Part shown: positions 11,326 to 33,417 of the stretch, in pieces
Position numbering within the stretch: position 1 is the first letter of the stretch
Layout: each line of letters begins with the position of its first letter
Source: Labilibaculum euxinicum
Lineage (GTDB): Bacteria > Bacteroidota > Bacteroidia > Bacteroidales > Marinifilaceae
DNA length: 64,000 nucleotides
Direction of reading: 5' to 3'
Assembly (NCBI RefSeq): GCF_009795715.1
Contig: NZ_WTCR01000007.1
Span: 186,001-250,000, forward strand
Made by a program: the position numbers and the translations under genes
The notes under the pieces: generated by a model
The model's input: only the letters and a program-made list of their open reading frames with translations
The model's database searches: none
What the model was told of the DNA's origin: nothing

Positions 11326-11392
11326 TCCGTAATTTTTTTTAACTATTATTTAAAAATTGAATTCTCTTGTCTTAAACAATCAAAACACATGC

Positions 11393-15309: not shown

Positions 15310-15417
15310 CAAAAATACTTGTATTGAAATAAACTCTCGTGATGCTGTGTTACACAAATTTGTTAGTTTGTTACATATTTTTCATTCCCGTTACATTTAA
15401 TTTCATTTTGGTTACAT
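15310..15417 (-). promoter_or_regulatory. Promoter of the symporter operon with four-copy GTTAC array
   Basis: On the plus strand GTTACA(T) begins at 15349, 15370, 15390 and 15411, so the spacing is 21, 20 and 21 bp. A perfect minus-strand -7 box TATTTTTG lies at 15317-15310, 31 bp from the first repeat. Between them, TATTGAAAT (from 15322) is shared with the susC promoter at the same offset. The same array precedes the susC and GH67 genes. It is most likely the activator site of the xylan HTCS. Confidence 0.75.
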
Positions 15418-15887
15418 CCTGTTTGTGCAGCTTCTTAAAAGATCAAATTGTATAACTATTCGCTGTCTGTTTATAATTTGTTCTGTGCATAGAGTTCTTC
15501 TTGATATCGCTATTTTCAATTGGTACAACAATTGTAATTATTCAGAGAAACAACCTATCTATATTGTCCAGACATAGAGAAATCCGGTCTTTATAATTCC
15601 TGATTTTTGCCTGTTCAAGACCCTTAGGTTTATTTATGATGACCGTTAAGTTTATTGAATTATGCCAGCGATGTAGTATTAATTTAGGCTGACTATCCGT
15701 TTAATTAAAACAATTTAATCACAATCTTCGTCGTACAGTAGTATTCTTCTCCCATTCAAACAATCTATAAAAAGATCAAAAAAAAGGATACTGAATCCAA
15801 TTCGGTTCTTGTCCATTTTAATTCCTTCTATCATTCCAGAATCAACTCACTTATTACTTACATTACTGGGCTCAGCTTTATTTAATT
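15418..15887. other. Intergenic stretch without recognisable content
   Basis: Between the regulatory array and the hairpin after the large GH10 I see no open frame longer than a few dozen codons, no RNA gene and no clear repeat. Confidence 0.5.
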
Positions 15888-15929
15888 CCCTCACAACCAA
15901 TACATTAAAACACACATTGGTTATGAGGG
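15888..15929 (-). terminator. Hairpin after the SusCD-GH10 operon
   Basis: CCCTCACAACCAAT pairs with ATTGGTTATGAGGG (14 bp, one mismatch, 14-base loop). It sits 26 bp past the stop of the large GH10 gene. In the transcript it is followed by AATTAAAT, not a U run, so it may protect the 3' end rather than act as a simple intrinsic terminator. Confidence 0.55.
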
Positions 15930-15954
15930 ATTACAGTAATTTAATATTAAAAAA

Positions 15955-18141
15955 TTAGTATTCAAGTTCACCCGAGAAATCTTCACTTACATCGCGTCCT
16001 GCGAGACCATCACACACTCCTTTAAAAGCATGTTTCCGGTTGTAATCTGCATCCCAAAGATTTGGTGATTCATCTGGAAGCCAGTATTCATGTTCATCCT
16101 CATTATCGGAAATACCCCATATTGTTACACCATATTGCTGTGCGACAGGAATATATTTCATATACATATCCAGAACATATTGATACATGTCTGCCTGAGA
16201 AGCTAATTGTGCCACAGTTGGATTCTTAGTTCCCAATCTCACATCCAGCTCCGATATTTTAATCAATTTTCCGCTGGCAGCCAACTTTTGAAACATTTCT
16301 GCAATCTTATCACGATCGCTATTAATGGATATGTGCATTTGAGTTCCAATACCATCAACGGTTGCTCCCTGACTTTCAATGTACTCCACGTACTCGATCA
16401 ATCCTTCACATTTGGATATGCTGGACTCGAGATTATAATCATTAATAAAAAGCTTATCTGTCGTATTACCATTCTGACGAGCCAATTTAAATGCAGTTAC
16501 AGCATAGTCTTTTCCAAGATATTTTACCCATGAAAAGTAATCACTTGCAGGATCAGTTACATTTCCATCTCTTAGTGTTCCGTCTTCTTTCATTGGTTCG
16601 TTCACTACATCCCATGCATGAATATTATCGTTATAATGGGTTACCATTCCTGTAATCCAATTTTCCATTGCATTCCCAATGATTTCAGATTTTTCCTCAT
16701 CTGTTTTTTCAATAATGGTTGGACCTGAATCACCTCCATCAGCAGCTCCCGTGGTAACAACTACATTATCTACATAATAAGTACCTTCAACACCTCCCAA
16801 ATCAAAGTTTAAACCTGTTTCTCCACCATCGGCAGTAAATACCCATTCTACATATTGCCATGTTGGAGATGTAGCTTGATCCCCCTGGTAATGAGCTGAA
16901 CCCGTTGTAGAACAACGAACAGAACCTGCAGCTTCAGATTTTATAAAATAAGAAATAGTATATTCTTCGCCTGCAGTTAAGTTTGCAGTAAAATCAGAAT
17001 GAATTTGTGTTTTCCACTGGTTTCCAGCACCACTATTCGCAGCATCAGCAATTACTTTCATAGCACCATTGCCTTCGTAAGCATCAGCTGCATCAGCAAG
17101 ACTTAATGCTGTATCACCACCATTCCACTTTGCCCATCCATCAATGCCTTCGTCAAATGTTCCATTAGCAATCATATTTACAACTTCAGGCACTGCATCC
17201 TGATCCACTACCTTAATATTATCAACATCAATAAGATATGTCACCCCAGGCAAATAACCTAAATCAAAGTTCATTTTGAAAGTTACACCTGTAAAATCGT
17301 TTACTGTAAATTTCACTTGTTGCCATTGAGTGCTTGTTTCAAAAGCTTCAGTCCAGGATCCTCCTGTACTATACCAATCCTTATATGGATAATTATTCTC
17401 CAAACCACTAAAAGAAATGCGGCCTTTACCTGCCTGATCTGATTTGATATAAAAAGAAATTTCATAAGTATGTCCGCTTACAACGGGGATTTCAGGAGTT
17501 ATCAACTGTAGTTCATAAGCTTGGGCTGATGACGAACCTGCAATCATTTTAACTGCTTGTGAACTGCTGGACAAACCAGCACCATCCTCTACAGAAATTC
17601 CATCACCACTATTCCAGGCACCCCAACCTGTGAGCGTTCCATCTTTTAAACCAGATAAATCGAGTGAATTACTCCCTCCGGAAGCAGGGATTACTGTCGA
17701 TGCAATTAAACCATTCAGATAACTGGCATTTTGATTGGAATGCCAAACCAGGGTATGACCAAATACTGAAAGTCCGGCTTCTTTGGTTTTAGCAATAAAT
17801 GCATCCACCTTATCGAATCCGATTTCTCCTTTGGAGTTAACCATTGGTTTATGCTTCATGGCGTACCCAACTGTTACTTCATCAAAGTTTTCATTGGTTA
17901 AATTACGGTATGCCTCATTATTCATGTACTGATCAAGGCCGATACCAACACCAAGAGTGAAATCGGTATAGGTATTTAAGGTCTCGTATCTACTTATTTT
18001 TTCAGCCAACTCTAAAGGTAGATCGGCTATACTTACTTCGCCATGTGTTGGATCTGTGTACCAATCCATTATTTGATCATCGCATGATGAAAAGATCATG
18101 GAAACAACAGCGATTACAGGTAATATTTTTATGTATTTCAT
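15955..18141 (-). CDS. GH10 xylanase with two carbohydrate-binding modules inserted in the catalytic domain, lipoprotein
   Basis: The lipobox (MIFSSC, C20) predicts a surface lipoprotein. The GH10 barrel starts normally (about 40-150, with VFGHTLVWHSNQ), is interrupted by two CBM4/CBM22-like beta-sandwiches (about 165-312 and 322-465, each ending in a TYxxDxDN or TYYVDNV strand), and resumes at about 480. The catalytic glutamates lie after the insertion: E515 in WDVVNEPM and E631 in KISELDVRLG. Inserted CBM tandems are known in GH10 enzymes of Bacteroides and Prevotella xylan loci. It is the last gene of the SusCD operon, 82 bp after the glycan-binding protein, and should make the first cuts in xylan at the cell surface. 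Confidence 0.95.
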   Translation of the reverse strand: MKYIKILPVIAVVSMIFSSCDDQIMDWYTDPTHGEVSIADLPLELAEKISRYETLNTYTDFTLGVGIGLDQYMNNEAYRNLTNENFDEVTVGYAMKHKPMVNSKGEIGFDKVDAFIAKTKEAGLSVFGHTLVWHSNQNASYLNGLIASTVIPASGGSNSLDLSGLKDGTLTGWGAWNSGDGISVEDGAGLSSSSQAVKMIAGSSSAQAYELQLITPEIPVVSGHTYEISFYIKSDQAGKGRISFSGLENNYPYKDWYSTGGSWTEAFETSTQWQQVKFTVNDFTGVTFKMNFDLGYLPGVTYLIDVDNIKVVDQDAVPEVVNMIANGTFDEGIDGWAKWNGGDTALSLADAADAYEGNGAMKVIADAANSGAGNQWKTQIHSDFTANLTAGEEYTISYFIKSEAAGSVRCSTTGSAHYQGDQATSPTWQYVEWVFTADGGETGLNFDLGGVEGTYYVDNVVVTTGAADGGDSGPTIIEKTDEEKSEIIGNAMENWITGMVTHYNDNIHAWDVVNEPMKEDGTLRDGNVTDPASDYFSWVKYLGKDYAVTAFKLARQNGNTTDKLFINDYNLESSISKCEGLIEYVEYIESQGATVDGIGTQMHISINSDRDKIAEMFQKLAASGKLIKISELDVRLGTKNPTVAQLASQADMYQYVLDMYMKYIPVAQQYGVTIWGISDNEDEHEYWLPDESPNLWDADYNRKHAFKGVCDGLAGRDVSEDFSGELEY

Positions 18142-18223
18142 TTTTCTTTGTTTTAGAATAACACGATTTGTCTAAGCATTATCTCGACTTGACAAATTCA
18201 TAGTTACTATCGCTTAAATATGT

Positions 18224-19609
18224 TTATTCTTCATCTTCAGGAAAATCACTATAAGTTGGTGTTTCCAAAGAAACGATTCTCCAATTATCAGTATAGACAC
18301 TAACAGAAGTAGCCGCGGAAGTGAATTCAGTTTCACTGTCGCTATCATTTCCTGTGATATTTGCGAGAGTAAAATCAGTGTTTTCGAAGTAAAATCCAAA
18401 GTTCTTATAATTGGCTGCTTCCCGATAAGCTAATATATCTTCAAAAGTGAAACCGTCTTCTGAAAAATCATAAATCATATTCAAAGGAATGCTTACTGTA
18501 GTCCAACCGGTAGTTTGAAAATCTTTCACCTCGCCATTAACCACCCACGGTACGTAATTGTAACAGGCACCACTCCATTCTCCTCCATTAAATCCATTTA
18601 CCAAACATATTTTTAAGTAACCAGTCTCTGTCCATGCTTCAGGTACATAAATATCAAACTGCAATGCAACATCAGCAAGAGGTGTTGTTGCCGGAATATA
18701 AGGTGTTAACTGACCACGCCAGTCATCCGAATTATTTCCTGCTGTCCACACTTCTGAACAACGAGGTGTTGCTGCATCAAATGATGCAATACGCGAAGGA
18801 CGATGCGGCACATACGTTCCCTGAGAAACATTTCCAGTACCCATAGATGCTGATTCCAAATCTTCATCCATAATCATACTCGTTGCAGTACCCCAAAAAC
18901 CATGTGCACCATTTCCATCAAAATCAAGTATTACCCCTTTTTTGAAATTAAAACAGGCAGGAGAATAAGCCCCTCCATTAGAGCATTCGATCAGTAAGGA
19001 ACCACCTTCTTCTGAAACGCCATCAGGAACAACTACTGTGAAAAATTCTCCATCAACATCAGAAGTAATTCCCTCTGTTACTTCAACATTACCAGGAAAA
19101 ACTACTTTGCTAACTTCAACTAAACCAAAACCATTTACAGTAATAGTTTCACCTGCTAATGGTAAAGTATGGGAGATACTTGTTATAGATGGTGCTGCAG
19201 AGCGAATTTCAAATGAAAATGTAGCTTCATTGCCATCATTTGTCATTCGAATGGTATTTCGAACATCAGCTTCGGCTTCAACCGTTGGTGTATTTTTGGA
19301 AACACTTACCAACATTGAATTCTCCGAAACATATACAGGATTAAAATAAGATGAAAATCCATTAATGTAAACTTTCCTTAGCCCTGTGAAACCAGAACCT
19401 TCAATTCTGATCAACTGTCCCAAACGGGCAAATGTTACTTCTCTGTCAGGTAACGATGAATCCACATCTTCCAAATAGACTTTACTTATCGTAATTGGAC
19501 CATTACTTAAATCCTCATCATCACAAGCTGTAAACAGCATTGCAAGAAGCATTATTGAAAAGAATGCGACGGATATCCAACGATTTTTATTTAAATTATT
19601 TCTCTTCAT
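18224..19609 (-). CDS. IPT/TIG-domain surface glycan-binding lipoprotein (SusE/F position)
   Basis: The start at 19609 ([11 protein letters not shown]) gives a lipoprotein signal ending AMLFTAC; an ATG eight codons earlier is possible. Two IPT/TIG immunoglobulin-like repeats follow (about 45-145, [17 protein letters not shown], and 145-230, [24 protein letters not shown]), and the C-terminal half (about 230-450) has a beta-sandwich with [11 protein letters not shown] and aromatic residues suited to bind a glycan chain. Proteins of this plan encoded after susD act as surface xylan or xyloglucan binders. The order SusC-SusD-this protein-GH10 is the common xylan core. It has no catalytic motif. 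Confidence 0.88.
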
Positions 19610-19652
19610 GTTAATCGATATTTTAAATTCCAATTCACTTATTATCTAACAA

Positions 19653-21284
19653 TTAGAATAAATCAGTTATTTTTTCTTCAGTAAACTCATACGGTACCGG
19701 TGTTTCTTTCAACAATGGATTTTGCACCACTTCCGATTCCGGATAAGGCAACAGAAAAATGGTTTCATCTACATTGCCAATAGAGCGTGATGATCTCGTT
19801 CGGGTTTCATCTTCAGTTGCTGTATTTGTTGAAGTATCATAAGTAAAAGGGACTATCGTTCCACGTTCCTGGTTGATAATGTAATTTATCACCTCTTGTT
19901 GTTTGTAATACGATCGGCGAACCAAATCGTACCAATACTGACCTTCCATGCATAACTCTACTCTTCGTTCATGAATAATATCCTCATAAGTAAGACTGGA
20001 TTTATCCTCAAGTCCGGCACGAAAACGAAGTTTATTAAAATATAGTAAAGCTGTTGCATCGGATGTACTTTCAGTATTCCCTAAAACAGCTTCGGAATAG
20101 TTTAAATAAACTTCAGCCAAGCGCAACATATTCGTGTTTAGAGCAGAGTTCTGTTTCGAAATTTTCGCATTATCTTTTGTAGATCCTACAACTCCTTTTT
20201 TCACATTTAGAGCTTCTTGTGTTTTTTCATAGGTATATCCACCATTCGCTTTGTTAATTTCAGGATAATAATCACCATATCCCATCCAGGTAGCTTTACG
20301 ACGAGCATCAGCAGATTCGTACTCCAGTAACACATTGTAAGAAGCTCTTGTCCAATATCCCCATGCAGCATCATCGCCGGTAATTTCAGATCCAGCTGCA
20401 AAGTAAGCCTGCTGTGTATTGGTCACACCATAATCTCCATTTGGAACCCACTGCAGTGCAAACATCGACTCTGAATTATTGTTGTTTTCTATCATGAATA
20501 TATCAGCATAATCGTCCATTAATTCATAAGGACCTTTATCCATAACCATTTCAGCAGCTTTTTTAGCTAAATCAAGATATTCCTGACTACGTATTCCACT
20601 GTTTGGATCTGCTCCTAAACCAGAAAATGATAAATAAATACGAGATAACATTCCAAATGCGCTGTATCTTGTTAAACGACCATCCTGTGCCGCCTGTTCA
20701 GGTAAATATTTAGCTGCATATTCCAAATCCCGCATTACAAATTCATACACATCAGTAACTGGGTTGGTGCTTACAATCGGATTATTCACCAATGTTCCAG
20801 GATCTTCAGAAATAATTACATCTCCCCATAAAGAAGCCAGATACCAGTAAGCTGTTCCTCTCATAAAGCGCGCCTCAGCGATATATTGTTTTTGTAAATC
20901 ATCTTCAACACTACTTCCTTTAATACCAATAATTACTAAATTAGATTGTTGAATTACATTGTAAAGCGATTGCCATGCCGACACCAGAGGTCCGGTCAAA
21001 CCTGTTTCTGTTAAATCACTAAACGGATAAATATAATCCGAGTACGGAGCATATAAATTGTAAGAGCGCCCATCGCCCAAACCATAATAAAATTTATCGT
21101 TAAAATCGAACCAAACTTTGTTGTAAAGTGGCGCTGTTGCCGCTTTAAAGTCTTCTTCTGACTGATAGAAATTTTCTTCAGTAATTTGATCTTGAGGTTC
21201 TTCCTCTAAAAAATCGCTGCACCCAGTCCAAATAATGGGAAAAGCCATCAATAGAATCGTGTATATGATATGTATTTTTTTCAT
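19653..21284 (-). CDS. SusD/RagB-family glycan-binding lipoprotein (xylan locus)
   Basis: The protein of about 543 residues has the lipobox IIWTGCSDFLEEEPQDQ and the SusD features: the N-terminal segment with EENFYQSEEDFKAATAPLYN, helical TPR units, and a C-terminal part with INQERRVELCMEGQYWYDLVR-like order (HERRVELCMEGQYW). I start at 21284 (MKKIHIIYT), which opens the signal peptide, not at 21326. SusD caps the SusC pore and captures oligosaccharides at the surface. It follows susC by 59 bp. Confidence 0.95.
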   Translation of the reverse strand: MKKIHIIYTILLMAFPIIWTGCSDFLEEEPQDQITEENFYQSEEDFKAATAPLYNKVWFDFNDKFYYGLGDGRSYNLYAPYSDYIYPFSDLTETGLTGPLVSAWQSLYNVIQQSNLVIIGIKGSSVEDDLQKQYIAEARFMRGTAYWYLASLWGDVIISEDPGTLVNNPIVSTNPVTDVYEFVMRDLEYAAKYLPEQAAQDGRLTRYSAFGMLSRIYLSFSGLGADPNSGIRSQEYLDLAKKAAEMVMDKGPYELMDDYADIFMIENNNNSESMFALQWVPNGDYGVTNTQQAYFAAGSEITGDDAAWGYWTRASYNVLLEYESADARRKATWMGYGDYYPEINKANGGYTYEKTQEALNVKKGVVGSTKDNAKISKQNSALNTNMLRLAEVYLNYSEAVLGNTESTSDATALLYFNKLRFRAGLEDKSSLTYEDIIHERRVELCMEGQYWYDLVRRSYYKQQEVINYIINQERGTIVPFTYDTSTNTATEDETRTRSSRSIGNVDETIFLLPYPESEVVQNPLLKETPVPYEFTEEKITDLF

Positions 21285-21343
21285 CTGTATCGTATTTTTA
21301 TTACATGTGCTGCCTATTCTCTTCATCTTAAGTATAAATTCAT

Positions 21344-24300
21344 TTAGAATGTAACATTTACCCCAAATGTATAGATACGAGGTGAAGGATAACGAGCATT
21401 ATCAATACCTGTTAAAAGTGCATCCTGATTGGTTGATCCAATTTCAGGATCATAACCCGAATATTTTGTAAAAGTATATACGTTTTGGAGGTTGGTATAA
21501 ACTTTAATATTTTGAATTCCAAATCGGGATACTAACTTACGTGGAAAATTATAACCAAAAGAGATACTTTGAATTCGCAGGTACGAACCATCCTCTACAA
21601 ATCTATTACTGTAACGATAGTTAGAGGTTGATGAGGCTGAAGAAGCACCTATACGTGGCATATCCGAATCGCCCCCTACAATTTGTACGTTGCGGTAATC
21701 ATTTGGACCATTTGGATCGATTAACGACAATTGCGCATAACCCAATGCTGATTTCAACAAGTTGGTACTTTCACGTGGATTTTCTAACCAGCGACGTTGG
21801 TAGTTTACCACTTCATTTCCATATGAACCAGATAGAAAGATATTCAAATCAAATCCTTTATAAGAAAATGAATTACCAATTCCGAACGTGAAATCAGCCT
21901 CAGGATTCCCAATATAACCTCGGTCTTCCTCGTTAATTACACCATCCTTATTTATATCCTCAAAAATATAATCTCCAATCCAAACACTATTTTCACCAAT
22001 ATCCATTCCTTCAGGTAAGGCTGTTGGAACAACTTCTCCGGCACTGTTCTTGTAATAAAAATCAGTAGCCTTCTCAAAACGGCCAATCACTTTATATCCA
22101 TAATATTGACCTATTGGCTTGCCCACTGCCGTACGGGTAACTACGGTATTATCTGATCCTTGCTGGATATTTCTATTTAAAATACCGGTTTCCGTATTAA
22201 GAGATAACACTTTATTACGGTTAATGGAAAAAACCAGATTGGAACGCCACAGAAAATCTCCTTTATCAATGTTAACGGTATTCAATGTCAACTCAATTCC
22301 TTTATTTTCGAGCGACCCAACATTTACCCATGGTGCTGATGTTGCCCCTACTCCTGATGTACCAACGTAAGCAGGTAAAGGCAACTGCAATAATAAGTTC
22401 TTCGTTTTCTTGTAGTAAACATCTGCAATAAACTCGATGCGATTGTTAAAAAGATTCAAGTCAATTCCCGCATTACTTGAATAAGTCGTTTCCCATTGCA
22501 GATCTTCATTTGCAGTATTGGCAGCAAGTAATCCCGTTCCCCAATTTGTTGCTGATGCTGCATATGTTGAGGTATATGCATAGTTAGGTACATTTTGGTT
22601 CCCAACGGTACCCCAACCCAGGCGAAGTTTCAGGTTGTTAATGACTGCATTATCCTTCAGGAAATTTTCATTGGATACTTTCCATGCTATTGCCGCGGAA
22701 GGAAACCATCCCCATCGGTTATCTTTATAAAATTTTGATGAACCATCATAACGTAAAGTTGCTGTCAATAAATATTTATCATCAAAAGAGTAGAACATTC
22801 TACCAAAATAGGAACTAATTGAGCTAGTTCCGCTGCTGTTAGAATTTTTAGCTGTTGTAGCATCACCTGCATCCAAATCGGTTGCACCATTGGTTAAATA
22901 TCCTGAACGATAAGCATAAAGGTTTTCCCAATGAGATTCCTGCATTTCCTGTCCTAACATCATGTTGATATTATGAATACCAAATTCACGATTGTAAGTC
23001 AGAATATTTTTCCAGTTCCAATACTTATTGTATGTCTTTGTGCGTGAGCCTTCGCTTACTTCATTTACAATAGCCCCAAAAGTATAGGTTGGATTAAAAG
23101 TATAGATATTACCAAATCCATAATCAAAAGAATATTCTGTTTTAAATGTAAGCCCTTTTATCAGTGTCGCTTCTGCAAAAGTGGAAGCTCTGATTCCAGC
23201 TTTTTCATTTCGGTTGTCTTTGATCATAGCCAAACCAACAGGATTGTTCTGAACGTACTCGTCAGTATCCGGACCATCAAAAGATCCATCGGCATTTCGA
23301 ACCGCTACATTAGGTGTTTGTTTAAGGGCAGTCAGAATTAGAGATTCATCTGAAACAGTCGTTTTTTGTTTGGAGTTGCTGAATGCGAAATTCACACCAA
23401 TTTTTAAAAAATCTTTCACCTGAGAGTCGAAAGTTCCCCTTAGGTTGAATCGCTCGAATGCTGAACCAACAGCTATCCCATCCTGATCAAGATAACCAAC
23501 TCCCATGGCATAAGTACTTTTATCTGTGCCACCGGAAACTGACAAGTTATGACTTTGCATCATTGCATGAGTAAACATTTCGTCCTGCCAATCAGTACCT
23601 TCACCCAAAAGATCAGTACGGACAAAATTATTATCCAAAGGTACAATTCCCATGTCTGCACGAGTATTTTTATGTATCGCATACTCTTGCAGATTAAGTA
23701 AATCAAGTTTTTTAGGCATCTCCTGCCATCCCATATAACCATCGTAAGTTATAGTAGCTTCCCCTTTCTTTCCACGCTTGGTGGTAATAATAATAACTCC
23801 ATTTGCTGCTCTGGATCCGTAAATAGCAGTTGCCGAAGCATCTTTCAAAACATCCATAGAAACAATGTCTGATGGATTTATTGATGAAAGAGCATTTTCG
23901 TTTCCAGAACCTGTTGCCCCATCAATAATTATCCCATCAATAACAAAAATTGGTTCATTTGAGCCATTCAGAGAACTGATACCACGAATGCGAATAGAAG
24001 AACCTGCACCCGGCGCTCCGCTGTTTTGCTGCACCTGTACTCCTGCTGCACGCCCCTGTAAAACCTGATCGATAGACGTGGTAACCGATTGGCTAATTGC
24101 TTCGCTTGAAACAGAAACCACTGATCCGGTTACGTCGGAACGCTTCATTTGACCATAACCAACTATAACAACCTCATCAAGAGATTGTACATCCTCAGCC
24201 ATTACAACATTAATGGTGTTTTGATTATTCACCTCAATCGTTTGAGTATTGAAACCAATAAAATTAAATGTAAGCCTGGCATTTGAAGGTACATCCATAC

Positions 24301-24499
24301 TGTAAACACCATCAATATTAGTAATAGTACCCTGGGTTGTACCTAAAATAACAATATTAACACCAGGTAAGGATTCTCCTCCTGAGTCAGTTACTTTACC
24401 CGTTACTCTTATCGTCTGGGCTAATGTTACCAAAGGCACAGCGATTAAAAGGAGCAATAGAAATATCCCCTTTTTTGTTCGAACATAGCATTTTTTCAT
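21344..24499 (-). CDS. SusC/RagA-family TonB-dependent outer-membrane transporter (xylan locus)
   Basis: The order in this 1051-residue protein is: signal peptide (GIFLLLLLIAVPLVTLAQ), a carboxypeptidase-regulatory-like domain (about 30-110), the TonB box DEVVIVGYG, the plug with LQGRAAGVQVQQNSG and GSRAANGVIIITTKRG, and the beta-barrel ending in YTFGVNVTF with the terminal aromatic residue of outer-membrane barrels. There is no STN domain, so signalling through an anti-sigma factor is not expected. It imports xylo-oligosaccharides together with the SusD partner. The promoter region is 555 bp long and carries the four-copy GTTAC array. Confidence 0.97.
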   Translation of the reverse strand: MKKCYVRTKKGIFLLLLLIAVPLVTLAQTIRVTGKVTDSGGESLPGVNIVILGTTQGTITNIDGVYSMDVPSNARLTFNFIGFNTQTIEVNNQNTINVVMAEDVQSLDEVVIVGYGQMKRSDVTGSVVSVSSEAISQSVTTSIDQVLQGRAAGVQVQQNSGAPGAGSSIRIRGISSLNGSNEPIFVIDGIIIDGATGSGNENALSSINPSDIVSMDVLKDASATAIYGSRAANGVIIITTKRGKKGEATITYDGYMGWQEMPKKLDLLNLQEYAIHKNTRADMGIVPLDNNFVRTDLLGEGTDWQDEMFTHAMMQSHNLSVSGGTDKSTYAMGVGYLDQDGIAVGSAFERFNLRGTFDSQVKDFLKIGVNFAFSNSKQKTTVSDESLILTALKQTPNVAVRNADGSFDGPDTDEYVQNNPVGLAMIKDNRNEKAGIRASTFAEATLIKGLTFKTEYSFDYGFGNIYTFNPTYTFGAIVNEVSEGSRTKTYNKYWNWKNILTYNREFGIHNINMMLGQEMQESHWENLYAYRSGYLTNGATDLDAGDATTAKNSNSSGTSSISSYFGRMFYSFDDKYLLTATLRYDGSSKFYKDNRWGWFPSAAIAWKVSNENFLKDNAVINNLKLRLGWGTVGNQNVPNYAYTSTYAASATNWGTGLLAANTANEDLQWETTYSSNAGIDLNLFNNRIEFIADVYYKKTKNLLLQLPLPAYVGTSGVGATSAPWVNVGSLENKGIELTLNTVNIDKGDFLWRSNLVFSINRNKVLSLNTETGILNRNIQQGSDNTVVTRTAVGKPIGQYYGYKVIGRFEKATDFYYKNSAGEVVPTALPEGMDIGENSVWIGDYIFEDINKDGVINEEDRGYIGNPEADFTFGIGNSFSYKGFDLNIFLSGSYGNEVVNYQRRWLENPRESTNLLKSALGYAQLSLIDPNGPNDYRNVQIVGGDSDMPRIGASSASSTSNYRYSNRFVEDGSYLRIQSISFGYNFPRKLVSRFGIQNIKVYTNLQNVYTFTKYSGYDPEIGSTNQDALLTGIDNARYPSPRIYTFGVNVTF

Positions 24500-24640
24500 A
24501 AATTTAAAATTTGCAGTATTTAATTCTGATTTAATTACTAACTGTTTAAGTATTAAAAACAGTGGTTCTATATGTGGTGGTTTTATTGATTATTTGTGAA
24601 TGAGTAATATAAAATATGATCGCAATTAAATTTTGTTGTT

Positions 24641-24748
24641 TAAAATTACTTCTATTGAAATTAACTAACATGCAAGCTTGTTACTAATATTTGTTTGTTT
24701 GTTACATCGTTTGCGTGCCCGTTACATTTTATTTTATTTTGGTTACAT
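24641..24748 (-). promoter_or_regulatory. Promoter of the xylan susC operon with four-copy GTTAC array
   Basis: GTTACT at 24680 and GTTACAT at 24701, 24721 and 24742 repeat the 21-20-21 bp spacing seen upstream of the symporter. A -7-like box TAATTTTA (24648-24641) lies at the same distance, 31 bp, and between box and array TATTGAAAT is shared with the symporter promoter. The last base of the -7 box is A where the consensus has G, which fits activator dependence. Confidence 0.75.
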
Positions 24749-25054
24749 TGATGGCTTAATTGCTTGTATTTAACCATTTTCAAGCCACCTAAAAACATTT
24801 TCAACATTTTATATTTATCTTTTAGTAAAGAACTTCGGATCAAGCTAAGCTTCATTGAATATGAATATAAACTCTCATAATTACTCGGAAAATGAAATAC
24901 AGATATTGAAGGCTAAATTGAATTTCACTCTAACAAAATAATTCCAACATATAAAGATCAGACAATCGTACACTACGCATTTAAACCGATTCTTTACTTC
25001 CGAAATACAGCCCGCTAAATGATGTCAAAAAATCCCTTAACTCGATTCGTTTTT
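24749..25054. other. Intergenic stretch after the GH2 gene
   Basis: No gene, strong hairpin or repeat is visible between the array and the GH2 stop. A minus-strand open frame at 24661-24855 runs into the regulatory array and has no family features. Confidence 0.4.
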
Positions 25055-27808
25055 CTATTTTACCTGAACAGTCGTTGCAATTTTCCGGATACCTTCTGAT
25101 TCTGCAATCACTTTAATTGTTCCGACCTCTCCTTGCTTTGCCTTAACAATTACCAATGCCAGTCCGTTAAATGCTTTGCGTTCATGAGAAGAAAATATTT
25201 CCAGATCGGATGGATCTCCATTATCTGTGGCAACAATCTCTCCCGGGCCTTCAATGCTGAATTTTATCAGATTATTTGAACGAGGCACCACAATTCCTTC
25301 CTGATCGCACACACTAACTGTAATAAAGGATAAATCTTTTCCATCACCTGTAATATAATTTCTATCCGCAGAAAGTTTTAATTGGCTGGCCTTTCCTGTT
25401 GTTTTCACGATCTCTTCAGCCCACTTTTCTCCATTTTTGTAAGCAATAGCTTTCAACTCTCCCGGAGTATATTTCACTTCGTCCCAACGAAAACGGTATT
25501 CTCCATCTATTTTTTTCTGATGTCCAAGCGATTTTCCGTTTAAAAACAATTCCACCTCATCGCCAGAAGTTGCAACATGAACCGGAGTAATTTCACCCAC
25601 TCTTTCGGGCCAGTTCCAATGCGGAAAAATATGTACCATAGGTAATTCCGGACGCCATCTTGCCTGATAAAGGAAATAACGGTCTTTTTTAAAGCCTGCC
25701 AAATCAATAATTCCACAATAGGAACTGCGTGAAAGATAATATGGTGTTGGTTCGCCAATATAATCCCAGCCCGACCAAACAAACTCACCAGCAACATAGG
25801 GATGTTTATCCTGAGTAGCGAATACCTTATCGGCCGACGAGCCAAATGGAGCCGTATACAATTCGTAGGAACTAACATATTTCGTATTAGGATCACCACC
25901 AGAACCATCCATAGCAGGTGCACTGCTTCCGGCAAATACAGGAAACAAATAAGTTCCGCGAGTACTTAAAGCTGATGCCGTTTCACTGCTCACAATAAGC
26001 TTTCCTGGATATTTCTCATGGAAATCTGGATAAAGCGGATGTGTATGAATTCCTTTCATCGCAACATAAGCGGGTGCATTCCGAATTCCTTCTCCCTGAT
26101 AATTTAAACTGATTACATCCGGCACTTCAGAAAACGGCATATCTGGTTTTGCAAAATTCATCGATGCCGTTGCAGGTCGTGAAGGATCTTCCTCTTTTAC
26201 AATATCGCGTAAACGTTTTGAAATTGAAGTGCCTTCTTTATCTGTATATTGTTCTCCAACTTCGTTGCCATAGCTCCACATTATAACTGAAGGACAATTT
26301 CTGTCTCTGCGCACAAAAGCACGTGTATCCTGTTCATACCAGTCCGGGAAAATCAGATGAAAATCAAGCGGTGTTTTCTTTCTTTCCCACACATCAAAAA
26401 TCTCATCTACCACCAAAAACCCCATTCTATCAGTCAATTCAAGTAATTCAGGAGCCGGAGGATTATGCGACAAACGAATAGCATTACAGCCCAGTTCATG
26501 CAACATTTCTAACTGGCGTTCAGCTGCACGTTTGTTAAAAGCTGCTCCCAAAGCTCCTAAATCGTGATGCTGATTAACACCTTGAATCCTTACAGCTTCT
26601 CCATTCACCACGATACCTTTTTCTGAATTATACTCTACAGAGCGAATTCCAAAACGAGTTTTATAAGTATCAATCAGCTTCCCGTCTTTCTGTAATGAGA
26701 TTACAGCCAAATACAAGTTTGGAGTTTGCGTTGGAAGTGGTCCCCACAAAGCCGGTTTTTCAATTGTAACGGTGTTTTTAATTTCAGTATTTCCAGAAGC
26801 GGAAACGATAACTTTTTCCGGAGAAAAACGGGCAACAGGATCACCTGTTTGAACACCATTTTTGTCCAAAGCATAAACAGTTGTATTCACTTCAATATGG
26901 CATTCAGACTTGCTGTCATTATCAACAGTTACAACTAAATCTACTTCAGCCGCTTTTTCGGAAACATTGCGCGATGTAATAACTGTACCCCACTGACCAA
27001 CATGCACCGAATTTGTTTTTGTTAACCAAACACTACGGTACAATCCTCCACCAGGATACCATCGGGCAGAGTTGGGTGGATTATCAATTCGGATTGCCAA
27101 TTGGTTCACTCCACCGGGAATAATGTAAGACGTTAAATCAACCTGCCATGAATTATAACCGTAAGGCCATCCTCCCACCAAATTTCCATTTAACCATACA
27201 ATTGCATATGACATAGCACCTTCTATTTCCAGGAAAATTGATTTTCCTGCATCATCAGTCGAAATATCCAGTTTCCTGCGGTACCATGCTGTTCCTTGAC
27301 TCGCCAAACGTCCCATTCCTCCGCCAACTTCAGATTCCCAACCTTCCTGAAATGGCTCTTCGATACCCCAATCATGAGGTAAATTCAATTTTCTCCACGA
27401 ACTATCATCAAAATCAGCCTGAACAAAAGGAAAATCACTTCCGGGATTTCCTTCCGGACGAATATGACGCTTTTCAGAATCCTTAATAAAATGATTTCCT
27501 GTTGGTAAAACCCAATCTTTCAGTACAGTTTGCTTCGCATCAACACGAACCGCTTCTGTTGGTTTCGAATCTGCAACCTTATCATCCTTACTATCATTCA
27601 CTTCAGGACGCACATCATAAATAAGACTATCTGCATCTGCCTGCGAAACATACTTAAAAAAATACCAACCGCTGTTGATTAAAATACGTTCACGGGAATT
27701 TGTTTCGCTATTTTTTGTTTTCGAACATGACAGGAAAATTAAACATCCTAAAAGCACAAAAAGGCTCCTTGCTATCCAGTTCTTAAATGATCTTTTATTT
27801 GCATTCAT
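25055..27808 (-). CDS. GH2 family glycoside hydrolase, lipoprotein
   Basis: This is a 917-residue GH2 enzyme with lipoprotein signal (CLIFLSC, C28). The order is sugar-binding jelly roll (about 45-270, GTAWYRRKL, YGYNSWQVDLT), immunoglobulin-like domain (280-390), TIM barrel (395-690) and C-terminal beta domains including a DUF4982-like one. The acid/base is E516 in WSYGNEVGE and the nucleophile is most likely E609 in VSSETAS. GH2 members with this layout are mostly beta-galactosidases, but others act on glucuronides, mannosides or arabinopyranosides. It follows GH115 by 137 bp in an operon with two alpha-glucuronidases, so it probably removes a sugar that decorates or blocks glucuronoxylan; which sugar is open. 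Confidence 0.9.
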   Translation of the reverse strand: MNANKRSFKNWIARSLFVLLGCLIFLSCSKTKNSETNSRERILINSGWYFFKYVSQADADSLIYDVRPEVNDSKDDKVADSKPTEAVRVDAKQTVLKDWVLPTGNHFIKDSEKRHIRPEGNPGSDFPFVQADFDDSSWRKLNLPHDWGIEEPFQEGWESEVGGGMGRLASQGTAWYRRKLDISTDDAGKSIFLEIEGAMSYAIVWLNGNLVGGWPYGYNSWQVDLTSYIIPGGVNQLAIRIDNPPNSARWYPGGGLYRSVWLTKTNSVHVGQWGTVITSRNVSEKAAEVDLVVTVDNDSKSECHIEVNTTVYALDKNGVQTGDPVARFSPEKVIVSASGNTEIKNTVTIEKPALWGPLPTQTPNLYLAVISLQKDGKLIDTYKTRFGIRSVEYNSEKGIVVNGEAVRIQGVNQHHDLGALGAAFNKRAAERQLEMLHELGCNAIRLSHNPPAPELLELTDRMGFLVVDEIFDVWERKKTPLDFHLIFPDWYEQDTRAFVRRDRNCPSVIMWSYGNEVGEQYTDKEGTSISKRLRDIVKEEDPSRPATASMNFAKPDMPFSEVPDVISLNYQGEGIRNAPAYVAMKGIHTHPLYPDFHEKYPGKLIVSSETASALSTRGTYLFPVFAGSSAPAMDGSGGDPNTKYVSSYELYTAPFGSSADKVFATQDKHPYVAGEFVWSGWDYIGEPTPYYLSRSSYCGIIDLAGFKKDRYFLYQARWRPELPMVHIFPHWNWPERVGEITPVHVATSGDEVELFLNGKSLGHQKKIDGEYRFRWDEVKYTPGELKAIAYKNGEKWAEEIVKTTGKASQLKLSADRNYITGDGKDLSFITVSVCDQEGIVVPRSNNLIKFSIEGPGEIVATDNGDPSDLEIFSSHERKAFNGLALVIVKAKQGEVGTIKVIAESEGIRKIATTVQVK

Positions 27809-27945
27809 ACTCTTTTAATTTTATATTGATATCCGATCCTATTCTGCAAAAAGATATGCTCCAACAAATGCCAATTTAAAATTTACAGGTCTTTGCAATA
27901 ACTCATATACTTCTTTAGGTAATTTACAAATCACTGGTTCAATAT

Positions 27946-30837
27946 TCAATTGTACATTTTACACTCCGGAGGTCCCAAATAAGATGGTTTGAGTCCACCA
28001 TTATCAATCATCAATTTTTGAAGCACAATTCCCGGATCAATCAACCAATATTTCACAGTATGGGTTTCTGTATTATTCAGTTTGTGTTTTGACTTTCTTA
28101 CTAATTTATTATCGGATACCGCTGTACACCACCATTCTGCGTAATTCCAATCCTTACCTGTACAACCTTCATGCAGGTTAATAATCTGAGGTTCTTCATC
28201 ATCTACAGATACCGCATATTTTAATCCGTCTTTATTCTTAAAATCCTGTGTTGGTGCCAAACACATAAAAAGAGTAATGGAATCATTTTTAGGTTTATTA
28301 AGCAATGTGAATGTATATTCCAAATGTGAATTGTCCTTACTAAACTCCTGATAACCTTTATTTACCGGCAATGATGTTACACCTCCTTTTGTGTTTCCCA
28401 AACCATTTATCACTTCCCAAGCAAATCCCTGACTGGTACTGCTTGAATTAAAGTCTGCAGCTTCAATGCTTACCACTCCGTTGTTCTCAATAAATCCTTG
28501 TAACTTCTTTTTATTCAGATCAATTTTATCTGCAATAACACCTAGTTCAATCACCTGACCATTACCAGATACAGAAATTGTTCCTGCTGAATTGCCGACA
28601 GGAAGTTGATCCCAGTTAACAGAAACAAAATGCCGATCCTCCTCTTTTAGATTATTTCCAATTCCACTGATTTTCAACCACTCAGGAGCTTCAACTTTAT
28701 AATCTATTGCTCTTTTCCCAGTGTTGAAAAGCTCAAAATAAAATTTCTGCTGATTGATATTATCGAAATTTGAAAGATTCGCTGTAGAATCATGCTCTGT
28801 CCAAATTTTATCTTTCCCTTCAATCTTTATACAAAGCTGTCCTACTTCCGGCACTTTCAAATAGGTTACCTGAGGCATCGTATTAGAGTCCGGATGGTTC
28901 CAATAGGTATAACCAATATGCTGCTGTGCCATCATATGATTCCACTTACCATCAGCTAATTCAGTATGAAACTCAAGAGTAAGCAATGAATCACGTTTAA
29001 AAAGTTCAACTACTTTATCAGCCATCAAGTTAGTTGCAGCTCTATTTTCTTTAGCATACTGCTTATTTTTAGCCACATACAAATACATTTCATTCAGATT
29101 AGCACAAATAGTTACTGGAAAATAAACCAATTGATAAAAGGCATCTTTTTGATCCTCATCTATGATATCATAAAGACTTTTAGCTCTTTGTGCTAAACGA
29201 TTGTAATCCTCAACTACTTTTTCAAATTCCCGGTAATGAATCAAACTATAGGTATGATTGTCCAATAATTCAGGTGTGCGACGCCTGTTATATTTTGTAT
29301 ATAAATCCAGCAGTTCAGCGATTTCTTTTGCATATTTTCCAGAGAATTGTTCTGATGCCCAATTTGTTGTATATTCTGATAATTCATTTACAGTAACCGA
29401 CTCAGGATTCCATGCATAGTCGAAGAAAAATGAAATAGGTAACTCCATTGGTTTCAAGTCGCCAACATTCACAATCCAAATACGATCAACCCCGTGTTCA
29501 TATGTTAATCTTAATTGCTCCCAAACCCGCGGTAATGAATTCGTATTGAGCCACTTGTAATTACGCGGACCTCCCACATAATCAAAATGATAATACATAC
29601 CGTAACCTCCCGAACGTTCAGCAGCTTCTGGTTCCGGCAATACCCTAACATTTCCCCAGTTGTCATCACAAAACAATAGTGTAACATCATCAGGTACTTT
29701 CATACCTTTGTCGTAATATTCCTGAACTTCTTTGTATAAAGCCCAAACCTGCGGTGTTTCATTAGCTGGCTTCTGAGTCACCTCTTCTATAATTTTTCGT
29801 TGATTGGCAACAATATCTTCCAGTAGTTCGATGTTGGTTCCTTCTTCCATGGCTTCATCGCCATCTCCTCTCATAGCAAGAGTAACAACACTTTCCTTAT
29901 TACCCATTCGTTCAATTCCCTCTTTCCAGAAAGCATCCAATTGGCTTTTGTTGCTCTTATAATTCCATGCTTTTCCACCGTATGGTTTCCATTCTGCATG
30001 AGCTCTCATCAATGGTTCATGATGTGATGTGCTCATTACAATTCCAAATTCATCTGCCAGCTGAGCATTTAGCGGATCGTCGCTATTAAAACTTGCCCAC
30101 CACATAGCAGGCCACAAGAAGTTGCCTTTTAAGCGTAAAATCAATTCGAAAACATGCTCATACATTTGATGATTGAATCCGCCGTAATTCTCAACCGCCC
30201 ATCGTCCTAAAGCAGGTTCCTCATCGTTTAAAAAAATACCGCGATATTTAACTTTTGGCTCACCCAAATTATATCTGCCTGCTTTAATAAATACCTCGGA
30301 GTGCTTTTTTACAGGAACATCAGCCCAAAAATACCAAGGAGAAACTCCCATTTTACGGCTAATATCGAACATGCCGTAAATTGTGCCTCTTTTATCGCTC
30401 CCGGCAATCACTAAAGCTCTATCAACGTTTGGTAAAGGATTCTCAACTACTTCAATTAAACTATTATCCCATTTCCCCTTTACATCATCTACAATTAACT
30501 TACCAGACTTAATTAATCCGTCTATCAATTGACTTTTTCCAATTGTTCCTATAATGATAACAGTACCCTGAGGATTTTTTCCAATATGCAAAGGACTAGT
30601 TACTCCTGTTACTTTTTCGATGTCTTTTTGAAATAATTCAGCGACTTTAATTACACCTGAATAGTCTTTATCATCAATATATATGGGAGTGCCTTTTTGA
30701 GATTTTACTATCGGGAAATTGTTCTCATTTACTGAAAAAGACACAAATTTATTCTCACTTAATTCCTTACCTGTACCATTTTTACAAGAGATTATACTGA
30801 ACAAGACAATCAACTCTAACACAATAAATCTTATCAT
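27946..30837 (-). CDS. GH115 xylan alpha-1,2-glucuronidase, lipoprotein
   Basis: GH115 enzymes remove (4-O-methyl)glucuronic acid from internal residues of xylan chains. The roughly 960-residue length and motifs are typical: YGMFDISRKMGVSPWYFWADVP near 180, the RGIFLNDEEPAL segment, WPAMWWASFNSDDP, and STSHHEPLMRAH; the C-terminal part (after about 790) is a beta-sandwich domain. I start at 30837, giving MIRFIVLELIVLFSIISC as lipoprotein signal; ATGs at 30861 and 30912 are in frame. It lies between GH67 and GH2 with the stop 137 bp before the GH2 start. Together with GH67 it covers internal and terminal glucuronic acid. Confidence 0.95.
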   Translation of the reverse strand: MIRFIVLELIVLFSIISCKNGTGKELSENKFVSFSVNENNFPIVKSQKGTPIYIDDKDYSGVIKVAELFQKDIEKVTGVTSPLHIGKNPQGTVIIIGTIGKSQLIDGLIKSGKLIVDDVKGKWDNSLIEVVENPLPNVDRALVIAGSDKRGTIYGMFDISRKMGVSPWYFWADVPVKKHSEVFIKAGRYNLGEPKVKYRGIFLNDEEPALGRWAVENYGGFNHQMYEHVFELILRLKGNFLWPAMWWASFNSDDPLNAQLADEFGIVMSTSHHEPLMRAHAEWKPYGGKAWNYKSNKSQLDAFWKEGIERMGNKESVVTLAMRGDGDEAMEEGTNIELLEDIVANQRKIIEEVTQKPANETPQVWALYKEVQEYYDKGMKVPDDVTLLFCDDNWGNVRVLPEPEAAERSGGYGMYYHFDYVGGPRNYKWLNTNSLPRVWEQLRLTYEHGVDRIWIVNVGDLKPMELPISFFFDYAWNPESVTVNELSEYTTNWASEQFSGKYAKEIAELLDLYTKYNRRRTPELLDNHTYSLIHYREFEKVVEDYNRLAQRAKSLYDIIDEDQKDAFYQLVYFPVTICANLNEMYLYVAKNKQYAKENRAATNLMADKVVELFKRDSLLTLEFHTELADGKWNHMMAQQHIGYTYWNHPDSNTMPQVTYLKVPEVGQLCIKIEGKDKIWTEHDSTANLSNFDNINQQKFYFELFNTGKRAIDYKVEAPEWLKISGIGNNLKEEDRHFVSVNWDQLPVGNSAGTISVSGNGQVIELGVIADKIDLNKKKLQGFIENNGVVSIEAADFNSSSTSQGFAWEVINGLGNTKGGVTSLPVNKGYQEFSKDNSHLEYTFTLLNKPKNDSITLFMCLAPTQDFKNKDGLKYAVSVDDEEPQIINLHEGCTGKDWNYAEWWCTAVSDNKLVRKSKHKLNNTETHTVKYWLIDPGIVLQKLMIDNGGLKPSYLGPPECKMYN

Positions 30838-31008
30838 ATTGATTTTATTTGTTTTTATCATTAAACTGAAACACATTACCTCGGGCTGCATTAATTGGCT
30901 GTTTTCACTCACAATCTCAGCTGAAGTTCAATAAAACTTAAATTTCTAAAGTCCTTCTCCAGGTACTTAAAAAAAAACATTTATCATCCATTTAGTTATT
31001 GTTAATCA

Positions 31009-33153
31009 TTAATTATGGTGAGTCTTTAAAAATTTAAGTTTCTTAAGATCTTCCAATTTATATTTTGGTTGATCCAGTTGAGAAGGAATTGGTCTGTGGG
31101 AAAAAGTTTGAAAATAAAGCAAACACGCATCCCTCCACCATATAGCTTCCTTTAATTGTATTGCCAATTTATTTTGCACATCATTAAATCTATTTTTATC
31201 CACTTTTGATTGAAGAGAATTCCAGGTGCATTGAAAATATTTTACCTGTTCAACACCCATGCTGTATCTGTAACACAATTCTGTCCATAAATCCCTGCCA
31301 TTAATCAATTCATAATTCCATGGCAAATGATGAAACCACAGCAAAAGTTCTTCCGGGCAAAGTGCAGGATCGTTATAAACTGAAAACAAAGGTTCTGCAT
31401 ACTGACTGACTGCATTACTTCCGCTTGATGATCGGTTAAATCCAATACCAATGCTATCTGCCTTATGGTAATAAGTTGGCAACCAGTCTGGTCTTGCTCC
31501 GGAAATCTCGCACCAGGGTTCTGGACCATAATGATGGCCCCACCCCATTAAATGATGTAATCCCAGTGGTGTCATATAATTTACAACGGCTTCTCTGGAT
31601 TCCATCATTACACCTGACATTTGATTCAGAAAATCCGGATCGTGTGAAAAGGTTTGCATTAACCACTCCGTTGCAATTTTCCTGGCAGATAATTGATGAT
31701 TCCAGGCCAAACGACCAAAAGCATACCAATTGGCCTGAGCAAAATGATGTCCGCACCAATTACTGTCTAAACCTATATTAGCAACCCCGGCAATAGCTGT
31801 TATCGAGTCATCGTAAACAGATCCGTCGGTAATCCTGGATACTGTAGAGTTTCTTCCATTTGTGTAGGTGTCTGAGTTTAAAAACTCCTTAAACAGTGTT
31901 CCTAAATAAACCAAGTGGTCCGAAAAACCCAAATATTCTTGTGTTATCTGTAATTCTGGCATCAGGGTAGTTTGGTGCAATGCACCAAACAAAGGACTGA
32001 ATGGCTCTCTGGGCTGAAAGTCAACAGGGCCGTTTTTCACTTGAAGTATTACATTTTTGCGAAATTTCCCATCCAGAGGTTTAAATTCATCATAAGCTTG
32101 TTTAGCGCGATCGTTTCCGTTGGAATTGTAAACAAAGGCTCTCCACATCACAATGCCTCCATGTGGTTTTAAAGCGTCGGCAAGCATATTGGCACCGTCA
32201 GCATGTGTTCTTCCAAAATCCTGAGGTCCGGGCAGTCCTTCAGAATTAGCTTTCACTAAAAAACCGCCAAAATCAGGAATTAATGAATAGATCTCATTGG
32301 CCTTCTCCTTCCACCAATTCTGTACTTCTTCTTTTAAAGGATCAGAATTCTCTAATCCACCTAATGCACTTGGTGAGGAAAAATTAATCGACAAATAAAC
32401 TTTGATTCCGTATGGGCGAAAAGTATTTGCTAACACTTTTACTTTTTCCAGATATTCCAGTTTTAGAATATCGGGTTTGGCATTAACGTTATTTAATACA
32501 GTTCCATTAATACCTATTGATGCATTTGCCTTAGCATATTCCACATATCTTGGACTGATCTTTTCTGGAAGATCTTCCCATTGCCAAATTGAATGACCAG
32601 CGTATCCTCTTTCAACCGTGCCGTCTAAATTATCCCAATGATTCAGAATTCTTCGTTGGTATGATGGTACTTCTACAATGTCAAAATTTGCTTTATGTGT
32701 ATTCTCAGTTTGTAAGTATCTTAAATAATGATAGGTACCATATAATGCTCCTAAATCGGTATTTGCAATAATAATGGTTACATTATTGCCTACTGTTCTT
32801 ATGATATAACCGTCATTCCCTAATACACTCAACTCTTCTTTCTTAAAGTAAGATGATAAATCTTTTTGGCTGGATGTGCCAACGCATAAACCATTTGAAT
32901 TCAATCGGCTTACATCCTTCACCTCCCTATTATACAATTTATTAAGACCACTTTTGAGTTCATTGTGAATGATGGTAAAAGTTGGAGATGATTGTGGTAT
33001 CCAAATAAAAGATGGGCAGGCAAACGACGCGCTTTCAATCGTTTCCATATGTGTAAACCACAATTCTGAACCATCCAATTTATTTTGACCTGAAGCCCAT
33101 TGTGTTACAGTAATAAAATACAAAAATATGATCAAGAAATATTTAGTAAGCAT
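31009..33153 (-). CDS. GH67 alpha-glucuronidase, secreted
   Basis: GH67 enzymes release glucuronic acid from the non-reducing end xylose of aldouronic acids. With the start at 33153 (MLTKYFLIIFLYFITV, a signal peptide; an ATG at 33192 is less likely) the conserved acids are E305 in ANSEGLPGP, and D378 (NGPVDFQP) and E406 (QITQEYL), whose 28-residue spacing equals that of the paired general bases described for characterised members. Length about 714 residues is normal. It is first of the operon GH67-GH115-GH2 and faces the HTCS gene. The shared upstream region holds the GTTAC array. Confidence 0.95.
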   Translation of the reverse strand: MLTKYFLIIFLYFITVTQWASGQNKLDGSELWFTHMETIESASFACPSFIWIPQSSPTFTIIHNELKSGLNKLYNREVKDVSRLNSNGLCVGTSSQKDLSSYFKKEELSVLGNDGYIIRTVGNNVTIIIANTDLGALYGTYHYLRYLQTENTHKANFDIVEVPSYQRRILNHWDNLDGTVERGYAGHSIWQWEDLPEKISPRYVEYAKANASIGINGTVLNNVNAKPDILKLEYLEKVKVLANTFRPYGIKVYLSINFSSPSALGGLENSDPLKEEVQNWWKEKANEIYSLIPDFGGFLVKANSEGLPGPQDFGRTHADGANMLADALKPHGGIVMWRAFVYNSNGNDRAKQAYDEFKPLDGKFRKNVILQVKNGPVDFQPREPFSPLFGALHQTTLMPELQITQEYLGFSDHLVYLGTLFKEFLNSDTYTNGRNSTVSRITDGSVYDDSITAIAGVANIGLDSNWCGHHFAQANWYAFGRLAWNHQLSARKIATEWLMQTFSHDPDFLNQMSGVMMESREAVVNYMTPLGLHHLMGWGHHYGPEPWCEISGARPDWLPTYYHKADSIGIGFNRSSSGSNAVSQYAEPLFSVYNDPALCPEELLLWFHHLPWNYELINGRDLWTELCYRYSMGVEQVKYFQCTWNSLQSKVDKNRFNDVQNKLAIQLKEAIWWRDACLLYFQTFSHRPIPSQLDQPKYKLEDLKKLKFLKTHHN

Positions 33154-33308
33154 ATGTATCGGTTTTGGCTTTATTAAAATATATTTTCGCAATTGCTAAA
33201 AACATATTAGGGTTAACAAATCAGATTCTTTATTTTTATCAAATTCACTTTTTCACCTCAACCATAGAATTTGGCATTCAGTATTCAAGTGTTAATTTCT
33301 TTGGACTA

Positions 33309-33417
33309 CAAGATACGTATAGTCTCTTCTTGAACTAAAACACTCTTGTTACCAACTATTTTCTGTTAGTTACTGCGAATTACATATTTGTTACATTATC
33401 TTTCCTATTGGTTACAT
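33309..33417 (-). promoter_or_regulatory. GH67-operon promoter with four-copy GTTAC array, shared with divergent HTCS gene
   Basis: GTTAC copies begin at 33348, 33369, 33390 and 33411, exactly 21 bp apart; the last two continue as GTTACAT. The orientation and the distance to the minus-strand -7 position (CAAGATA at 33309-33315, a poor match) are the same as in the symporter and susC promoters, so the GH67 operon is the likely target. The HTCS gene starts 76 bp to the right, so autoregulation is also possible. Confidence 0.65.

Follow-up and report, generated by a model that had tools for sequence, protein, structure and literature searches.

Promoter-phased GTWACA arrays as the predicted operator of a xylan hybrid two-component system in Labilibaculum euxinicum

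The DNA considered here, a 64,000-nucleotide stretch of contig NZ_WTCR01000007.1 of Labilibaculum euxinicum (the window), encodes a putative xylan locus in which three minus-strand operons are each preceded by four direct copies of the word GTTAC, and in which a gene for a hybrid two-component system (HTCS) diverges from the last of these operons (Table 1). A preliminary description of the window had taken the arrays for the DNA site of the xylan HTCS and the three operons for its regulon, and this is supported by comparative genomics, with binding itself a prediction. We put at about 0.86 the probability that each array is the operator of this HTCS, two dimers of which would lie on four slots and activate the three operons.

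The locus and its three arrays

All twelve copies begin exactly where they had been placed, repeat at the claimed period of 20-21 bp and face the same way, 12 of 12 reading GTTAC on the plus strand and having the minus-strand gene on their left. The AT tail that had been attached to the word is present in copies 3 and 4 of all three arrays and in copy 2 of two of them, but in copy 1 of none, and the word is better described as GTWACA once distant relatives are compared. The −7-like boxes that had been claimed between array and gene are exact before array 1 and approximate before arrays 2 and 3 (Table 1), the sigma-ABfr consensus of Bacteroidota at −7 being given as TAnnTTTG in the passages of PMC7366714 drawn on here.

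By simple product 6e-7 four-copy chains are expected in the window. A triple-GTTAC pattern gives six matches there against none in 100 dinucleotide shuffles, and GTTAC, which occurs 67 times on the plus strand and 53 times on the minus strand of the window, forms pairs at 20 or 21 bp only as the nine within the arrays. Across the whole genome (5,055,185 bases) the triple pattern has eight matches, six in the three arrays and two in a GTTACTT tandem repeat, and the reversed pattern run over the same bases as a control has none. The full 21-20-21 pattern searched in the genome at up to 3 mismatches returns arrays 1 and 2 only, and exact GTTACAT-N14-GTTACAT occurs three times, each time as copies 3-4 of one array; when up to 2 mismatches are allowed that pair shows no excess in the genome (42+41 matches versus 39+49 for the control). 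The genome scan that had been proposed as a check finds the arrays not scattered, and it turned up no comparable non-tandem array in the rest of this genome. Arrays 1 and 2 may be copies of one promoter, because their spacers (36/47) and gene side (30/60) are also alike; array 3 is unlike them.

Table 1. Arrays, promoter boxes, candidate operons and regulator gene in the window
Feature	Position	Strand	Remarks
Array 1	GTTAC starts 15349, 15370, 15390, 15411 (span 15349..15417)	+	gaps 21-20-21
Array 2	GTTAC starts 24680, 24701, 24721, 24742 (span 24680..24748)	+	gaps 21-20-21
Array 3	GTTAC starts 33348, 33369, 33390, 33411 (span 33348..33417)	+	gaps 21-21-21; between divergent GH67 and HTCS genes
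−7 box of symporter operon	15310..15317	-	TATTTTTG (TAnnTTTG); exact; −39 from copy 1
−7-like box of susC operon	24641..24648	-	TAATTTTA; one mismatch to consensus
−7-like box of GH67 operon	33309..33315	-	TATCTTG; one base short of consensus
Candidate operon after array 1	4865..15209	-	MFS_2 symporter (13722-15209), GH10, GH43, SASA esterase, GH43 xylosidase, open reading frame (ORF) 6942-7580, SDR, UxuA
Candidate operon after array 2	15955..24499	-	susC, susD, surface glycan-binding protein, CBM-GH10 xylanase
Candidate operon after array 3	25055..33192	-	GH67 (31009-33192), GH115, GH2
Hybrid two-component system	33493..37569	+	Reg_prop propeller, Y_Y_Y, HisKA, HATPase_c, receiver, AraC-type HTH_18
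AraC-type DNA-binding domain	37210..37566	+	recognition helix SRVHMHRKLKEL

The three candidate operons are drawn as such because the intergenic gaps are small. UxuA in the first of them is a mannonate dehydratase and, as two alpha-glucuronidase families are encoded along with it, the probable substrate of the locus would be glucuronoxylan. The end of array 3 stands about 75 bp upstream of the HTCS start codon (window 33348-33493), and so the HTCS may regulate its own gene through this array.

The HTCS unites HisKA and HATPase_c, a receiver and an AraC-type helix-turn-helix (HTH) in one chain, together with a Reg_prop/Y_Y_Y sensor found by domain search, the periplasmic location of which is predicted; a hydrophobic stretch at about residues 790-812, seen in the alignment, is a candidate membrane span. 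The half made up of the receiver (REC) and HTH matches PDB chain 12aw, a hybrid two-component system protein, at E 3.2e-49. The DNA-binding domain is modelled as seven helices (mean pLDDT 91.8), which provide the two HTH motifs and long linking helix of the AraC/XylS class, and its nearest folds include AraT, YesN, AraC and MarA, with TM scores of 0.73-0.80 by query length. In AraC-type folds the two HTH motifs contact successive major grooves. Wherever the recognition helix was located among the relatives its sequence is nearly always SRVH[ML][HY]RK, with the relative at locus L076 deviating, and across 15 aligned domains its S, R, V, H and RKLKE do not vary. The receiver loop is NHIP in the window HTCS and in five genus relatives and not the S/CHIP loop, which the passages of PMC11253607 used here describe as frequent and not universal (84% S or C at position 1) and link to inhibition between the REC and DNA-binding domains; autoinhibition in the NHIP-bearing clade might differ.

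Conservation and geometry of the arrays

Within the genus the HTCS is found in five of eight relatives (G005 at 97% identity, G002 at 96%, G007 and G008 at 91%, G006 at 90%), and for G001, G003 and G004 the best HTCS match among the matches listed is at 32-34%. An alignment of orthologous promoters, also proposed beforehand, finds the arrays kept with unchanged gaps in all five genomes having the HTCS, three in G005 and two in each of the others. Slot 1 retains GTTAC in 13 of 14 same-genus promoters, the window's three counted, the exception being the susC array of G006, whose copy 1 is ATTAC, and substitutions affect 1/60 GTTAC columns versus 23/142 spacer columns (Fisher p 0.0019). The TATTTTTG box is identical in all five symporter promoters of the genus, the window's own included, and the GH67-promoter box recurs at −39 or −40 with no more than one mismatch in G002, G006, G007 and G008, not in G005. 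The stretch from symporter to GH67 holds largely different genes in G002, G007 and G008, including a susC at only 32% identity, and the symporter and GH67 arrays persist despite this difference. The six genomes that have the HTCS have GH67 too, and the three without the HTCS lack it; the GH67 matches at G007:C1:1587353-1589524 and G008:C4:30708-32879 contain one in-frame TAA each, perhaps only from the match starting upstream of the true start. Triple-GTTAC matches in G001 (one) and G004 (seven) were of a different kind wherever inspected, which covered all but one of those in G004, and the pattern is unspecific in the tandem-repeat-rich family members G023, G044, G048 and G052.

Beyond the genus, a search at E ≤1e-220 finds that 33 of 393 genomes of the order, own included, encode relatives of the HTCS, with identities of 34-54%. 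Neighbourhoods were read from 25 genomes, among them G011 of the same family, and loci beside other HTCSs served as controls (51 in the GTWAC-array scan, 91 in the scan phased to the −7 box). GTTAC chains stand in 14 of 256 upstream regions near the relatives, with G430 and G080 entered twice in this count, and the word ranks first of 120 permuted words, its complement reaching 7 regions and any other word at most 3. When GTWAC is used 20 regions score, in 13 of 26 neighbourhoods, compared with 11 for GWTAC, 8 for GTAWC and 3 for the next word. GTWACA arrays recur beside relatives of the HTCS as distant as about 36% identity, upstream of genes that include susC, symporter, GH115, GH3 and esterase; G430, with an HTCS at 54%, has four GTWACA at 21-20-21, and G272, G360, G219, G422 and G080 have four slots too, some degenerate. 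Neighbourhoods having a symporter, GH10, CBM-GH10, GH67 or GH115 relative, sorted post hoc, carry arrays in 10/13 cases versus 3/13 for those without. A free-motif four-copy test of low power reaches p ≤1/40 in 4/21 susC promoters near relatives, where the best G422 window is A/T-rich and not the motif, and in 2/19 promoters near other HTCSs (L126, L129), with none positive among 7 further promoters near other HTCSs.

With exact CAAANNTA, which is TAnnTTTG of the −7 box when read on the gene strand, as origin, sites in 64 relative loci fall at +39/40 (12), +60/61 (19), +80/81 (15) and +101/102 (11), so that the eight slot offsets hold 57 pairs, other offsets average 0.70 each and the controls place 3 on slot offsets; offset −4 is also high (10; controls 8) because the two words overlap there. 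Boxes with at least two exact slot sites, counted at offsets 38-40, 59-61, 79-82 and 100-103, number 21 near relatives versus 0 in the 91 control loci. Exact GTWACA pairs near the relatives lie at distances of 20 (7), 21 (21), 22 (2), 41 (7) and 62 (2), others at most 2 each, in a tally that a few overlapping loci enter twice, and near other HTCSs no exact pair at 20-22 was found. An exact TAnnTTTG, as a candidate −7 box, stands in 10/14 distant promoters at offsets −37 to −40. The arrays are nearly absent beside other HTCSs, with one doubtful match in 51 control loci and no phased box in 91; the doubtful match, L151, lies beside an unrelated HTCS and does not resemble a promoter-phased array. 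Conservation beyond the genus, a further check named in advance, holds in part: 14 of 34 genomes have GTWACA arrays by the exact box criterion (G078, G011, G080, G430, G272, G198, G219, G360, G191, G283, G379, Bacteroides xylanisolvens, B. oleiciplenus and Parabacteroides) and 20 do not.

Gap 3-4 is 21 bp in 23/23 promoters and gap 1-2 in 13/14, whereas gap 2-3 is 20, 21 and 22 bp in 12, 8 and 2 promoters (Fisher 1.9e-6 versus gap 3-4, on one row per promoter with relatives and duplicated promoters included, so that rows are not fully independent). For six distant promoters slot 1 was placed one period towards the gene and their gap 1-2 was omitted from these figures; the exact-box slot count does not depend on how slot 1 was placed. 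Because gaps 1-2 and 3-4 are fixed and gap 2-3 is variable, the spacing suggests two dimers side by side with a movable joint between them, a refinement of the stacked multimer earlier proposed. Distant arrays also have a T-rich second box 11 bases from the G of GTWACA, which is very weak (0.38 bit).

Known operators and the Bacteroides xylanisolvens loci

Direct-repeat HTCS operators have been known since 2013, and the promoter-phased four-slot form is a variant of them. In the parts of PMC3878776 drawn on, Ravcheev et al. describe Bacteroides HTCS operators as a direct repeat of two sites with an average of 21 bp between them; shared with the window are the AraC-type HTCS, the ~21 bp direct repeat on one DNA face, its place upstream of susC and enzyme operons (whose control is inferred here) and a proposed dimer. 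The arrays differ from those exactly two-site motifs in having four copies in each window array, and 3-4 slots in several other promoters, a variable middle gap and a phasing to the −7 box, and the section on HTCSs in that paper gives no xylan-specific HTCS regulon. No four-slot promoter-phased HTCS operator appeared in the literature searched, the PMC3878776 supplements, RegPrecise and Miyazaki 2003 lying outside that search. XynR of Prevotella bryantii (Miyazaki et al. 2003, through the passages of PMC8002723 used) is an HTCS needed to induce xylan genes, and is likened by role and not by binding site. HTCSs rank among the major regulators of polysaccharide loci in the gut Bacteroidota, and for them the literature, as far as sampled, offers only predicted sites and whole-promoter gel shifts. 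A readable site, with GTWACA slots placed about +39/+60/+80-81/+101-102 relative to the −7 box, would make xylan regulons callable from sequence and would open the number of dimers per promoter, one or two, to direct test. AraC of Escherichia coli also binds direct half-sites, araI1 and araI2, which are spaced 21 bp and of which the nearer adjoins the promoter, but AraC acts as one soluble, arabinose-bound dimer, in contrast to the two pairs of a membrane-anchored kinase fusion proposed here.

In B. xylanisolvens XB1A, according to the passages of Despres et al. (2016) relied on here, knockout of the HTCS of polysaccharide utilization locus (PUL) 43 abolished growth on insoluble oat-spelt xylan, strongly lowered that on wheat arabinoxylan and affected that on xylose too, and expression went strongly down for PUL 43 and for four rPUL 70 genes (GH67, GH10, transporter, GH2), with direct versus indirect control left undecided by the authors (PMC4855328). 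XB1A encodes one GH67 match and one HTCS at 39% identity, the second-best HTCS reaching 31%; the neighbourhood of the 39% HTCS fits PUL 43 by gene content, BXY_29350 being assigned by content and not by locus tag. This region has a four-slot array at 21-20-21 with a box at −39, preceding a 476-residue ORF just ahead of tandem susC/D genes, and the rPUL 70-like operon (esterase/GH2-like, symporter, GH10, GH67) stands behind three exact GTTACA at +60, +81 and +102 from its box, slot 1 being degenerate. BXY_29350 resembles the window HTCS as its best match in XB1A, in a locus of matching content and with arrays in both matching regions; it differs in that the PMC4855328 passages name no binding site and report the xylose-growth effect. 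The shared arrays are a likely direct cause of the reported cross-regulation, direct control of both XB1A loci by one HTCS through them being its simplest explanation; a layout shared by several related bacteria may likewise explain how one sensor switches distant clusters together. A GTAACAT pair 21 bp apart also lies upstream of the XB1A HTCS gene itself.

Proposed mechanism and alternatives

In the proposed mechanism each 20-22 bp slot would take one AraC-type DNA-binding domain, with GTWACA as the main box, and two dimers of the membrane HTCS, once phosphorylated in response to xylan oligosaccharides, would occupy slots 1+2 and 3+4 on the same helix face. Counted from the −7 box the slots stand at about +39, +60, +80/81 and +101/102, which would place them at roughly −44, −65, −86 and −107 from the start site, and because of these set offsets the promoter-proximal dimer could contact RNA polymerase, the symporter, susC and GH67 operons being activated together. 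We infer binding, activation, the inducer and the filling order of the slots, and read the pairing of the slots as two dimers from their spacing. More tentatively, and at somewhat less than even odds, the xylan HTCS clade of Bacteroidales may employ an obligate dimer pair for which the DNA is a rigid ruler of four slots (pairs fixed at 21 bp, joint of 20-22 bp), where a weak slot 1 would let the promoter fire only when the second dimer is recruited, and the same ruler at unlinked operons would let one HTCS command several loci, as with PUL 43 and rPUL 70.

A number of observations weigh against the operator reading. Slot 1 is degenerate in distant promoters, with GTWAC in 3/14, and so outside the genus the arrays may have fewer than four working sites; co-occurrence within the genus is weak alone because neighbouring genes travel together. 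By the exact criterion 20 of the 34 genomes are without arrays; these misses take in xylan loci in G084 and in G133 as well as L150, a relative at 42% that has the recognition helix yet no array, and a control HTCS, L157, also has the SRVH..RKLKE helix. Arrays adjoin HTCS relatives in G282, G422 and G379 whose neighbours lack most xylan genes, and in G367, one of the 14 GTTAC-chain regions, the chain precedes an unrelated-looking 202-aa gene. In the first scan of named genomes, where the word was overly strict and part of the flanks not long enough, plain GTTAC arrays were found beside 0/9 relatives and 0/51 controls, and GTWAC arrays beside 2/9 relatives and 1/51 controls; Parabacteroides became positive only after a longer flank was taken, and the XB1A PUL 43 array has just one exact GTWACA among its four words.

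That slot 1 decays beyond the genus would also suit a functional operator for a single HTCS dimer on one slot pair, with the remaining copies as weak extras from promoter duplication. Only copies 3-4 form a GTTACAT-GTTACAT pair in every one of the arrays, just two exact sites occur in one G379 promoter and in the symporter promoters of G078 and G191, and the published B. thetaiotaomicron motif is, in the portion of PMC3878776 used, of two sites at 21 bp on average. However the exact pair in G078, G191 and G379 is slots 1-2 and not 3-4, slot 1 keeps GTTAC almost throughout the genus, and 3-4 phased slots recur across several families at a fixed distance from box to slot 1, so that a single dimer seems unlikely. 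Much less probable is that some other regulator binds the arrays, such as the stand-alone AraC-type protein encoded about 11 kb away (44198-45073) or a Crp-like protein. Many AraC-type proteins do bind direct repeats ~21 bp apart, but the arrays track those HTCS relatives whose helix is SRVH..RKLKE as the other neighbours vary, and the motif of the Crp-like BT4338 is a palindrome, wwwTATGTTnTAnAACATAwww (PMC11501099). It is scarcely credible that the arrays have no dedicated protein and represent a repeat of structural or mobile origin, through phased bends or tandem-repeat expansion. Repeats of comparable period, GTTACTT and GTTACGGAA, do occur in these genomes, but the xylan arrays have spacers that differ between copies, conserved cores and a position fixed to the −7 box, and the searches of this genome turned up no other non-tandem array like them.

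Other repeats were met in the relatives. The GTTACTT heptamer tandem repeat lies at G000:C37:2113-2166 and is present in G005 too. At L222, L223, L224, L225, L226 and L227 (G004, G017, G028, G001) apparently intergenic GTTACGGAA followed by ~12 variable bases repeats with a period of 21-22 bp in up to about 9 units, four of the six arrays (L222, L223, L225, L227) having upstream of them a conserved ORF of ~250 aa (MSDQQ...) for which Pfam gave no match; these arrays differ from the xylan arrays. At L129:4478-4926 (Chitinophagaceae) a susC promoter beside a different HTCS has a GTTTACT-like four-copy array at 21 bp, with no exact −7 box, which hints that other HTCS clades may use four slots.

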